Below are positions 4,009 to 8,449 of a DNA stretch of 22,726 nucleotides, piece after piece (the first letter of the stretch is position 1; every line of letters starts with the position of its first letter). The notes under the pieces are model-generated. The model had not been told where the DNA came from. It made no database searches and was given only the letters and a program-made list of their open reading frames with translations. This DNA comes from a virus. The stretch lies in the IMG/VR virus record IMGVR_UViG_3300030329_005208, positions 1-22,726 of that record; one strand, 5' to 3'. The position numbers were made by a program, and so were the translations under genes.

Positions 4009-4054
4009 ATAATTTAACAAATTTTTATAACAAAACAAAATGGAAAGGAATGAA

Positions 4055-4792: not shown

Positions 4793-4993
4793 ATGGGAGC
4801 AGTAAAGGAATATTACCACCACAAACAAAAAGAAATAGATTCTAATCATGAGGAGTGGTACATGGAACAATGGAAGAAAGAATCTGTTAAGAAAAAAGCA
4901 GATAAGATTAAAGATCATTTTAAAAAAGATGAAGATTTTGATGATAAGCACTATACTACTGCTTACATAGAAGATAAAATAGGAAAGGAATAA
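4793..4993 (+). CDS. Hypothetical charged protein, 66 aa
   Basis: I do not recognise this protein. Its ATG at 4793 directly follows the regulator's stop (TAAATG), with GAAGGGAG inside the end of the regulator gene, so the two are probably translationally coupled. The product is highly charged, almost all Lys, Glu, Asp, His and Trp, and predicted helical throughout, with a YYHHKQKE segment at residues 7-14. It lacks a hydrophobic core and may fold only on a partner. Confidence 0.6.
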   Translation: MGAVKEYYHHKQKEIDSNHEEWYMEQWKKESVKKKADKIKDHFKKDEDFDDKHYTTAYIEDKIGKE

Positions 4994-4999
4994 AATAAT

Positions 5000-5218
5000 A
5001 TGGATAAATTACTAAATAATGCAGAGTTTGCAGAAATAATAGATATTGAAACTAATAGAGTTGAAAGAGAAACTGAATTTAAAAAGCAATATCACAGAGG
5101 TTTAAAGATTGTTATAAGTAAGGGCAATATTTTCTACGAAGTTGAAGGTGTAGAAAAGTTAAGACAAAAGTATAATAAATTAGTAGATATATTAAATGAA
5201 AGGAATAACAATGAGTAA
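5000..5218 (+). CDS. Hypothetical coiled-coil protein, 72 aa
   Basis: I do not recognise this protein. The ATG at 5000 follows AAAGGAATAAAATAAT. A short helical N-terminal half is followed by a strand pair (LKIVISKGNIFYEV, residues 35-48) and a C-terminal helix with heptad-like leucines (50-68). It overlaps the annealing-protein gene by eight bases and carries that gene's ribosome-binding site, so it belongs to the recombination operon and could be an accessory factor. Confidence 0.6.
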   Translation: MDKLLNNAEFAEIIDIETNRVERETEFKKQYHRGLKIVISKGNIFYEVEGVEKLRQKYNKLVDILNERNNNE

Positions 5219-5645
5219 AGAAATAACATTCAAAGATGTATGGGAAACTCTAAGAGCAATAGATACATCTAAGATTGAAGTTCAAAAAAGTGGATTATCT
5301 TATGTTGGTTGGGCAGATGCCTGGGCTTGTATAATGGAGCATTATCCTGAAGCAACATATGATTTCCCTGAGCCTACCTTCTATGGCTTAGAAGATAGTA
5401 AAACTTGTGAAGTGCATTGTAGTGTTAGCATAGGAGATCTAACAAGAGAATTTTCTCTACCAGTAATGACAGCTATGATGCCCATGAAATCAATAACCAA
5501 TCCAACATCAAGAGATATATCAGATGCTAAAGCTAGATGCTTAGTTAAGGTTTTGGCTATGTTTGGTTTAGGGTTGCATTTATGGGAGAAAAAAGACAAC
5601 AAACAAACTGGAAAGCCTAAAGCATTTGATGGTAATCCATTTTAG
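5211..5645 (+). CDS. Single-strand annealing protein, DUF1071/Sak-like
   Basis: A 144-residue phage recombinase of the single-strand annealing type, which pairs complementary ssDNA during recombination-dependent replication and repair. Family hallmarks visible are LSYVGWADAWA (29-39) early in the domain and the C-terminal core TSRDISDAKARCLVKVLAMFG (99-119) followed by LGLHLWEK. The last residues, FDGNPF, resemble the tip by which SSB recruits partners, which fits a protein working at the replisome. I chose the ATG at 5211 behind AAAGGAATAACA; an in-frame ATG five codons upstream lacks a site. The SSB-like gene at 5751 lies one micro-ORF downstream, and two nucleases lie 3 kb further on, forming a recombination set. 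Confidence 0.85.
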   Translation: MSKEITFKDVWETLRAIDTSKIEVQKSGLSYVGWADAWACIMEHYPEATYDFPEPTFYGLEDSKTCEVHCSVSIGDLTREFSLPVMTAMMPMKSITNPTSRDISDAKARCLVKVLAMFGLGLHLWEKKDNKQTGKPKAFDGNPF

Positions 5646-5654
5646 AAAGGAATA

Positions 5655-5741
5655 ATGATGAATATAGATATAGGGATGTTGGAATTAACAACAATATGTT
5701 TCACGATAGTAATTGTAGTATATTTAACTAAATTCAAATAA
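5655..5741 (+). CDS. Putative membrane micro-protein, 28 aa
   Basis: A 28-codon frame with tandem ATGs at 5655 and 5658 behind AGAAAGGAATA. It begins with a short polar stretch and has a hydrophobic helix at about residues 9-24 (Leu, Thr, Ile, Val, Phe) with a basic end (LTKFK), the form of a one-helix membrane peptide. It fills the gap between the annealing and SSB-like genes without leaving spare bases, and its end carries the ribosome-binding site AAGGAGAACGA for the next gene. Its size limits certainty. Confidence 0.42.
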   Translation: MMNIDIGMLELTTICFTIVIVVYLTKFK

Positions 5742-5990: not shown

Positions 5991-6085
5991 TGGAAGAATT
6001 TATAGATTCAATAGATGAATTTTTCAATTCAATACTAGGTGTGCTAGACTCAATTTTTCAGGCAATATTTGGTGAAGTTGAGTAA
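5990..6085 (+). CDS. Acidic amphipathic micro-protein, 31 aa
   Basis: A 31-codon frame overlapping its neighbours by TAATG at both ends (5988-5992 and 6083-6087), which argues for coupled translation. The peptide alternates acidic residues with Phe, Ile and Leu (MEEFIDSIDEFFNSILGVL) and has no basic residue at all. It would form a strongly amphipathic acidic helix, suitable for binding a protein groove. I do not recognise it. It lies between an SSB-like and a replication-like gene. Confidence 0.48.
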   Translation: MEEFIDSIDEFFNSILGVLDSIFQAIFGEVE

Positions 6086-6558
6086 TGCCACTTTTCCTTG
6101 AAATATTAATAAGGGAGAATGGTAAAGAGAGGTGGGTGGACTCTCGAAAGTTATTCAAGTATCTCTTGGAGGATTACTCAAAGGTCGATTATAAAGGCAA
6201 ACTAGTCGATCCCTACAACACTCGGATCAAGAAGTTTTACTCAAATATCCCCCAAGAGTTACTTGATACTTGGAAAAAAGCATATCCAAATGTGGACATC
6301 CAAGAACAATTAAAAAAATGTGAAGCATGGCTTTTAAGCAATACCAATAAGGCTAAAAAAGATTTCAAAAGATTTACGAACAATTGGCTTTCTAGAGCAA
6401 TGGAATTTGGAGGAAATATTCCAATTCAAGTTGATACTCAAATAGAAAAGCAAATCAAAAAACAACAAGAGTATAATAGACAAGCAGAAATTGATTCTGC
6501 CCCACAAGAATGGGTTCAGGATCTACTTAAAAAAACAAAAGAGAATATGAGCAAATGA
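6085..6558 (+). CDS. Putative phage replication accessory protein, 157 aa
   Basis: The central part carries a motif I associate with C-terminal regions of phage replication initiators, replisome organisers and helicase loaders: WKKAYPNVDIQEQLKKCEAW (63-82), LLSNTNKAKKDF (83-94) and KRFTNNWLSRA (95-105). The N-terminal 60 residues look like a separate basic domain (VDSRKLFKYL), possibly a helix-turn-helix remnant or DNA-binding lobe. The C-terminal 45 residues are Gln/Lys/Glu-rich and helical. The expected role is loading or organising replication proteins at the phage origin. No helicase or polymerase is visible in this window, so the partner would be host-encoded or outside it. The stop overlaps the next start by ATGA. 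Confidence 0.6.
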   Translation: MPLFLEILIRENGKERWVDSRKLFKYLLEDYSKVDYKGKLVDPYNTRIKKFYSNIPQELLDTWKKAYPNVDIQEQLKKCEAWLLSNTNKAKKDFKRFTNNWLSRAMEFGGNIPIQVDTQIEKQIKKQQEYNRQAEIDSAPQEWVQDLLKKTKENMSK

Positions 6559-6788: not shown

Positions 6789-6835
6789 CAAATAGGTGTG
6801 TTTATTTCAGTCGGATGAGAAGTTTTGTGGCACTA

Positions 6836-6903
6836 TGGTGGTAGGTGGCGACAGGTTTTTATTATTCCTTTACCTGTGGGGGGTTCGATTCCCCCACCAC
6901 CAC
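6836..6903 (+). ncRNA. tRNA/tmRNA-like element lacking a D stem
   Basis: TGGTGGT (6836-6842) pairs fully with ACCACCA (6896-6902) as a seven-pair acceptor stem. GGGGG (6879-6883), TTCGATT and CCCCC (6891-6895) form a perfect T arm directly before it. ACAGG (6851-6855) pairs with CCTGT (6873-6877) around a 17-base loop where an anticodon arm would be. Between acceptor and this arm there are only AGGTGGCG, so there is no D stem. CGACAGG at the loop/stem junction resembles the conserved D-loop segment of tmRNA. There is no room for a tag-peptide reading frame. It could be a tRNA mimic, a reduced tmRNA domain, a decayed phage tRNA or an attachment site borrowed from a tRNA/tmRNA 3' end. Confidence 0.6.
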
Positions 6904-6933
6904 AAGGGTATCAATAAATAACAAAGGCTAATT

Positions 6934-7158
6934 ATGGACAAAACTCATCAAGTAATCCTGGACACCTATCGGTTCAGGTTAAGGAATTATTGCGAAACTG
7001 GTATCGGCAATAAATCTAAAGTAACAGGAACTACAATAACAAAAACAATGATATTTAATTGCTTAGATAGATATATAGAGCTAGGTGGCGATCTGTCAGA
7101 GGTTAAAATAGATGATAAAATATATCAAGAATTTCAGTCAGAGATGTCAATGTTGTAA
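6934..7158 (+). CDS. Hypothetical protein, 74 aa
   Basis: I do not recognise this protein. It is the first gene after the tRNA-like element and restarts the rightward run; the ATG at 6934 has only a weak site (AAAGG at 6923-6927). It is helical, with a basic N-terminal segment DTYRFRLRNY (residues 10-19), a Gly/Thr-rich loop (23-37) and a hydrophobic helix IFNCLDRYIELGG (40-52). Two cysteines (Cys20, Cys43) are too far apart for a zinc knuckle. It overlaps the start of the next frame. Confidence 0.58.
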   Translation: MDKTHQVILDTYRFRLRNYCETGIGNKSKVTGTTITKTMIFNCLDRYIELGGDLSEVKIDDKIYQEFQSEMSML

Positions 7159-7508: not shown

Positions 7509-7626
7509 AAAATGTAAAAAGAAGATAAACAAACCAAGTGAAACACCACAAGAGGCTATGAGGAAGTTTGCACTTAAACTTAAAAAAGAAAACGAAAAAA
7601 TTAAAAAGGAAAAAAGTGGAAGCTAA
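7498..7626 (+). CDS. Very small CxxC protein, 42 aa
   Basis: A 42-codon frame from the ATG at 7498 overlapping the end of the previous gene by 11 bases, with AAGGGAATTAAAAG upstream. It has a single knuckle, CEKC at residues 3-6, then a Lys/Glu-rich helix that makes up most of the chain. One CxxC could bind zinc only as a dimer or with a partner. Its end overlaps the probable GTG start of the PP-loop gene, so it may serve translational coupling. Confidence 0.45.
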   Translation: MICEKCKKKINKPSETPQEAMRKFALKLKKENEKIKKEKSGS

Positions 7627-8449
7627 AGACATATATAAAAAATATGCTAAAGGAAATAAAGATGCACCACTTAAAATTATATCATTGGGCTTAGGTGTCC
7701 AATCTACTGCTGTATATTTAATGAGTTCTATGGGTTATAAACTGCCTAGGGCAGATTATGCTGTGTTTGCTGATCCTGGTGCAGAGCATCCAAAAACTTA
7801 TAAAATATTAGAATGGTTATTGGAGTGGAAGGAAAATAATAATGGCATTGATATTATAACTAATAAAGATAGAAATCTTTATGAAGATATAATTAATAAA
7901 ATACCTAAAGGAGAAAGAGTTGCATCAATTCCAGCATTTTCTAAAAATAACGATGGTTTACTAATGAGGCAATGTACAAGTGAATATAAAATACAACCTG
8001 TAATCAAAACTGCAAGAAGTTTACATAATCTAAAGCCAAGACAAAGAATGTTAGAAACAGAAATGTGGCTAGGCATATCTTTAGATGAAATAGAGAGAAT
8101 GAAAGAAAGCAACCTTTACAATATTAAGTATTTTTATCCTCTAGTATATCATGTGTTATCAAGAAATGATTGTATTGACTTTTTTAAAGATAATAATTTT
8201 CCCATACCTGTTAAATCATCTTGTGTTTTTTGCCCATATCATTCTAATAAATTTTGGAAAGAGATGAAGTCTGATCAAAATGTATGGGATGATATTATTA
8301 AAGTAGATAAAACTATTAGAAACAACAAAAGATTGAAAGAATCTCAATATTTACACAGATCGTGTACCCCTATAAATGAAGTAGATTTCGAGGATAATCA
8401 ACTAGAAATGTTTGAAGGATATGATTGTGAAGGTTATTGTGGATTATAA
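7616..8449 (+). CDS. PP-loop ATPase, PAPS-reductase/DndC-like family
   Basis: A 277-residue member of the adenine-nucleotide alpha-hydrolase/PAPS reductase superfamily. The PP-loop is SLGLGVQST (23-31), followed by a strand ending FADPGAEHP (51-59). RQCTSEYKIQP (118-128) is the conserved substrate-side motif, and Cys120 with CVFC (203-206), Cys250 and a C-terminal CEGYC (271-275) could hold an iron-sulfur cluster or zinc. Such enzymes activate substrates with ATP for sulfur transfer or reduction; the substrate here cannot be read from sequence. I chose the GTG at 7616 (AAAAAGG upstream, overlapping the previous stop by 11 bases). A TTG at 7568 would add 16 Lys-rich residues out of the shadow of the previous gene. 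A role in nucleic-acid thiolation or modification is a guess. Confidence 0.75.
   Translation: MEAKDIYKKYAKGNKDAPLKIISLGLGVQSTAVYLMSSMGYKLPRADYAVFADPGAEHPKTYKILEWLLEWKENNNGIDIITNKDRNLYEDIINKIPKGERVASIPAFSKNNDGLLMRQCTSEYKIQPVIKTARSLHNLKPRQRMLETEMWLGISLDEIERMKESNLYNIKYFYPLVYHVLSRNDCIDFFKDNNFPIPVKSSCVFCPYHSNKFWKEMKSDQNVWDDIIKVDKTIRNNKRLKESQYLHRSCTPINEVDFEDNQLEMFEGYDCEGYCGL

Follow-up and report, generated by a model that had tools for sequence, protein, structure and literature searches.

We found that an element at positions 6837-6902 (+ strand) of a 22.7-kb virus record (22,726 nucleotides, analyzed whole and called the window below) folds like a tRNA without a D arm and carries, where the anticodon loop belongs, a large loop that matches the ribosome-binding sites (RBSs) of the phage's own early genes. 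Such a match suggests that a tRNA scaffold has been made into a base-pairing switch for early translation, and we give about even credence to the reading that the element is a trans-acting antisense RNA that would block early mRNAs. The initial annotation of this DNA was right to describe a tRNA mimic without a D stem, which we found to be conserved with compensatory changes in relatives, and it missed the main point, which is the match between the large loop and the early RBSs. The phages that carry the element are uncultured and probably marine.

The sequence and fold described earlier at 6836-6903 were borne out with small corrections. The acceptor stem joins GGTGGT (6837-6842) to ACCACC (6896-6901) in six pairs, and pair 3-70 of the window is U3-A70. 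Seven acceptor pairs had been claimed, of which these six stand; the seventh (U-A, 6836/6902) is present in the window and is an A-A mismatch in the related locus L016. An 8-nt linker, AGGTGGCG (6843-6850), replaces the absent D arm, in agreement with the eight bases counted before, and its GG at 6847-6848 occupies the position of tRNA G18G19. The middle arm was also real, but what had been taken for five pairs and a 17-base loop is better read as six pairs (ACAGGT, 6851-6856, with ACCTGT, 6872-6877) enclosing a 15-nt loop, UUUUAUUAUUCCUUU (6857-6871), a candidate anti-RBS sequence complementary to early-gene RBSs. The T arm is as perfect as reported (GGGGG-TTCGATT-CCCCC, 6879-6895). The 3' acceptor strand runs into a discriminator-like A6902 and a CAA tail (6896-6905 together), with no CCA encoded. 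The minimum free energy of the element is -27.3 kcal/mol, and 3 of 200 shuffled sequences folded equally well.

Searches for known RNA classes did not assign the element to any of them. ARAGORN, used as a check for a canonical tRNA model that would refute the mimic, called no tRNA and no tmRNA in the window. It was negative in the relatives too, except for L021, which was called tRNA-Gly(UCC). We rejected this glycine anticodon, as the UUCC belongs to a longer pyrimidine run matching RBSs and the loops are far larger than 7 nt. A tRNA has a four-arm cloverleaf with a D arm and a 7-nt anticodon loop; here there is no D stem and the loop measures at least 10 nt. All ten aligned elements (10/10) combine the D-loop GG with a T-loop TTCRA without a D stem. 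Rfam at its gathering threshold gave zero matches in the window. The best full-length match below threshold was to mascRNA-menRNA (RF01684; 19.5 bits, E 0.096, cut-off 42.5 bits). The mascRNA and MEN beta RNAs are likewise small and tRNA-like, but they form a eukaryotic family, and we claim no homology at 19.5 bits.

Relatives were collected through a 157-aa ORF (6085-6558, +) that serves to locate syntenic loci and is not a predicted target. This ORF led to 26 loci in IMG/VR, and to more through its alignment; it had no relatives in the GTDB genome collection and only weak partial matches in cultured phages. In about 20 related contigs the element occupies the same position within the early region, where the gene order is SSB, the 157-aa ORF, a coiled-coil-like ORF of about 70 aa, the element, an ORF of 60-80 aa (6934-7158, +, directly 3' of the element in the window) and a Cys-rich ORF. 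The distance from the 157-aa ORF to the element is about 265-360 nt in most relatives, and the next ORF follows the element after about 30-45 nt in most families. In L025 and L162, a small transmembrane-like ORF (MSSSDILLYLL... and MTTEVIMIAVG..., respectively) separates the element from the conserved ORF that follows. The early region of the window also holds a GP88-family gene (PF17338, 1383-2081) and a phosphoadenosine phosphosulfate reductase-like gene (7568-8449). Scans with a pattern from the window's own GGTGGCGACAGG segment gave chance-level matches only, and a generic T-arm pattern returned mostly ordinary phage tRNAs and tmRNA tails.

We grouped the loci by scaffold. The tRNA-like families are A (the window and L009-L013), B (L016 and L018), C (L025, L026 and kin), C2 (L027 and L030), D1 (L021) and D2 (L162). 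Hairpin families without a T arm are E (L014, L017, L022, L023, L034, L177 and others), F (L160) and H (L024/L171). Plain hairpins occupy the same locus in E, F and H, and their loops contain CCUUUCU in E and F. Because the locus and the loop motif persist in some relatives whose tRNA body has given way to a hairpin, the loop appears to be the working part. The same replacement indicates that the body probably serves processing and stability.

For the structural comparison, we hand-aligned ten tRNA-like members, built a covariance model from six of them and ran it over 472 kb, where it found exactly one copy per tRNA-like genome. In the model alignment, 92% of cells were paired, versus 42-65% for slid versions. 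The acceptor and T stems (helices 1 and 3) were paired in 100% of cells, with double-sided changes at 7 of 11 pairs, including 4 of the 5 T-stem pairs; these are the compensatory changes that the initial annotation had proposed looking for in related phages. The two acceptor strands covary across families, as GGTGGT/ACCACC, GGAAGC/GCTTCC, GGGGGTG/CACCTCC, GGGGGCG/CGCCTCC and GGGAGTT/GACTCCC. The middle arm is misregistered in the model alignment, and its covariation comes from the hand alignment (ACAGGT/ACCTGT, TCAAGTT/AACTTGA, TCAGGCT/AGCTTGA, CAAGCTA/TAGCTTG and CATAAGG/CCTTATG). The D-loop GG and the T-loop TTCGA are constant in the ten members, and the acceptor continues into ACA(A) in nearly all of them. 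Within family A, the loop is invariant, save one extra U in some members, and the stems vary. Since the model finds one copy per tRNA-like genome and the acceptor and T-stem pairs are kept through double-sided changes, the element is more than a chance fold. Among the tRNA-like families, the alanine signals G3-U70 and A73 occur in only two, D1 (L021, 5711-5791) and D2 (L162, 3701-3777), both of which also have a tmRNA-like D loop.

Directly upstream of the element lies TTGTGGCACTAT (6825-6836, +), a variant of a motif, TTGTGGTAATAT, seen with element types A, D, E and H. TTGTGGTAATAT itself adjoins the element in L171, L162, L014 and L009 and has no exact copy elsewhere in those genomes. It looks like an extended -10 promoter element (a perfect one in the case of L171, TGTGGTATAAT), whose implied start would fall inside the acceptor stem. 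Further upstream is a hairpin with a GTCGGA loop (6805-6821, +), with a constant loop and family-specific stems in relatives. A T run follows this hairpin in some relatives, and it is possibly a terminator or a protein-binding site. Scans with the two motifs revealed no further families.

The loop of the window is complementary to seven RBSs on the + strand. The matches measure 9 nt at 522-530 (gene start 536), 11 nt at 977-987 (start 992), 11 nt at 1366-1376 (the GP88-family gene, start 1383), 8 nt at 4044-4051 (start 4055), 10 nt at 4984-4993 (start 5000), 10 nt at 5199-5208 (a Sak single-strand annealing protein gene, start 5211) and 11 nt at 5646-5656 (a small ORF of 27 aa, start 5658). 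Duplex energies with the loop, for those of the window's predicted targets for which they were computed, ranged from -10.4 to -15.4 kcal/mol, compared with -7.0 to -8.1 for non-targets. Across genomes, perfect loop matches at early RBSs of the same phage run 9-15 nt, with a 15-nt match (AAAGGAATAATAAAA) in L009 and L010 and a 13-nt match (AATAGAAAGGGAA) at the ERF gene of L021. The matched sites read AAAGGAATAA(TAA) before many family A genes, TAGAAAGGAAT in L018, AGAAAGGAA in E, and GGAATAAAAT / AATAAAATGAA in C and C2, where they reach the start codon.

These matches concentrate at gene starts on the early strand. Using the contigs behind the loci and genes from a simple home-made caller, we searched the interval between -25 and +6 around each start for complementarity to the loop of that genome. 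Gene starts accounted for 47 of the 72 sites of at least 10 nt on + (early-strand) transcripts and for 0 of 12 on - (late-strand) transcripts over all genomes; the contigs are fragments and are related within families, so these counts are not independent. In family A, own-loop matches of at least 9 nt occurred at 31 of 122 early-strand versus 0 of 97 late-strand genes (Fisher p 3e-9). Because the loop is rich in pyrimidines and early RBSs in A and G, composition is expected to account for some of the complementarity. Against dinucleotide-shuffled loops, the p values were.071 for A,.058 for B,.026 for C,.005 for C2,.006 for D1,.059 for D2,.038 for E,.12 for F and 1.0 for H, and the nine families combined gave p of about 1e-5. 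The window's own family A alone is thus not significant against these strict shuffles (p 0.07), and mean loop-RBS duplex energies mostly do not beat shuffles. Overall, families A, C, C2, D1 and E show strong RBS complementarity beyond chance; D2, F and H show little or none, with zero RBS matches of at least 9 nt.

Loop and sites appear to vary together in several families, most clearly in A against E. When loops were swapped, the A loop matched A genomes 31 times and E genomes 7 times, and the E loop 0 and 20 times. The swap is not clean for C and C2, whose loops often match A genomes because A-rich spacers are common. Where the match was extended from an AAAGG anchor, the own loop was best in A, B and D1, tied in E and lost in D2 and F. 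The better fit came from the D1 loop, which shares CCC, in D2 genomes and from the E loop in F genomes.

To judge by loop complementarity, the most consistent predicted target is the single-stranded DNA-annealing protein gene, despite its changing protein type. When conserved gene families were ranked by own-loop match, ERF came first (9.8 nt, against 6.5 for foreign loops) and Sak second (8.4 nt, against 7.5). A third type, Erf/Rad52-like, had a 10-nt match in four A genomes, and in F its match was 8 nt long. The neighboring SSB gene had a loop match of only 4-7 nt, and the paired difference between annealing gene and SSB gave p 0.0006 over 17 genomes and p 0.016 over nine families. The annealing gene (5211-5645 in the window) encodes Sak, ERF or an Erf/Rad52-like protein depending on the relative, in an unchanged neighborhood.

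In the mechanism that we propose, host enzymes of tRNA processing would probably cleave the early-region transcript on either side of the tRNA-like fold, yielding a stable RNA of about 66 nt. The acceptor arm, the T arm and the D-loop GG would form a tRNA elbow and protect this RNA, and the anticodon arm would present a single-stranded guide loop of 10-17 nt, longer in two families. In the cell, the guide loop is predicted to pair at several of the phage's own early genes, where it would cover the Shine-Dalgarno sequence, the spacer and, in C and C2, also the start codon. Such pairing, most consistently at the annealing protein gene, would block 30S binding and lower the amount of early protein; we infer repression rather than activation. 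In a further-reaching version, which we consider rather doubtful, the tRNA mimicry would itself be functional: host tRNA machinery would mature the RNA and, in some families, charge it with alanine, and the expanded loop would guide it to chosen mRNA starts, making it a retargetable, tRNA-shaped regulator of initiation.

An unlikely alternative to a trans-acting RNA is a cis-acting leader or processing site, in which tRNA enzymes cut the fold, or the fold covers the Shine-Dalgarno sequence of the next ORF, and only that ORF is controlled. Both the fixed position about 30-45 nt before the next ORF in most families and the anti-Shine-Dalgarno sequence in the loop, which in L021 has a 7-nt match to the downstream site, are in keeping with this. 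Yet the loop matches the downstream Shine-Dalgarno sequence over 5-7 nt, compared with mostly 9-13 nt at annealing-protein RBSs, and the downstream ORF family is unremarkable among conserved families by own-loop match. Moreover, the small ORF in L162 and L025 separates the element from the orthologous ORF.

We regard it as improbable that the loop is a mimic of the 16S rRNA 3' tail that titrates ribosomal factors or Shine-Dalgarno-bearing mRNAs generally, with no specific targets. Families B and E come closest to this: their loops read UCCUUUCU, like the usual 16S tail, their matched sites also pair 8 nt with the tail, and the E loop is hardly distinguishable from a copy of it. In A, C, C2 and D1, by contrast, the matches extend 10-11 nt, against the 5-8 nt that 16S rRNA can pair, and seem to shift along with the mRNA sequences. 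In most families, 16S complementarity is about as good at late genes, yet these lack loop matches.

It is very improbable that the element is a reduced tmRNA or a tRNA acting in translation through an aminoacylated, EF-Tu-bound 3' end. Like the tRNA-like domain of tmRNA, it has acceptor and T arms, no D stem, the D-loop GG and a long arm where an anticodon arm would be, and it retains the tertiary GG and T loop; D1 and D2 add G3-U70, A73 and the tmRNA-like D loops GGTTCGA / GGTTTCGA. Unlike tmRNA, it has no peptide-tag frame, as the initial annotation had observed, and no conserved D-loop sequence, and its loop matches RBSs. The CGACAGG segment that had been likened to tmRNA is not conserved even in the nearest relatives, the Rfam tmRNA models (RF00023 and RF04321) match only the 17-nt T arm, below cut-off, G3-U70 is missing in all but two families, and some relatives have no tRNA fold at all; the earlier suggestion of a reduced tmRNA thus went unsupported. 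The other suggestion made then, that the element is an attP site copied from the 3' end of a host tRNA or tmRNA and used in site-specific integration, draws on the resemblance of the element's 3' half to a tRNA 3' end. It is largely refuted, indeed scarcely credible: the two acceptor strands covary, the position within the early region is fixed, and a search of 20 related records, many of which are fragments, found no tyrosine integrase (PF00589).

As a trans-acting antisense RNA, the element would resemble several known regulators. The C-rich (UCCC) loop sRNAs of low-GC bacteria, RsaE, RNAIII, SprD, FsrA and LhrC, use pyrimidine loops to pair with Shine-Dalgarno regions of mRNAs and block initiation (PMC4132741), and the pyrimidine loop of the phage element is proposed to pair over the Shine-Dalgarno sequence in a similar way. 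The RsaE-type sRNAs differ in being host-encoded, with binding sites described in stem-loops and a single-stranded stretch and no tRNA-like body, whereas the phage element shares one phage with its predicted targets and its loop appears to change with their RBSs. The c4 antisense RNA of phages P1 and P7 is likewise a phage RNA whose loops are complementary to an RBS and block translation of a phage gene (PMC12197685); as described there, it has one target (ant), a function in immunity and no tRNA-like fold. Phage T4 RegA competes with the ribosome at the initiation regions of about 30 T4 mRNAs (PMC3014915). RegA is a protein, and the phage element would be a base-pairing RNA with a similar regulatory outcome. 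A search of the open-access literature turned up no account of a phage antisense RNA with a tRNA-like form, which is weak evidence of novelty.

If the proposed mechanism is true, these phages made an antisense regulator from a tRNA fold, with a guide loop against their own RBSs replacing the anticodon, and re-tuned the guide repeatedly as the RBSs changed. The element would then be the RNA equivalent of the T4 repressor RegA and constitute a new control of recombination-protein levels during phage infection, and it would offer synthetic translation control a compact scaffold.
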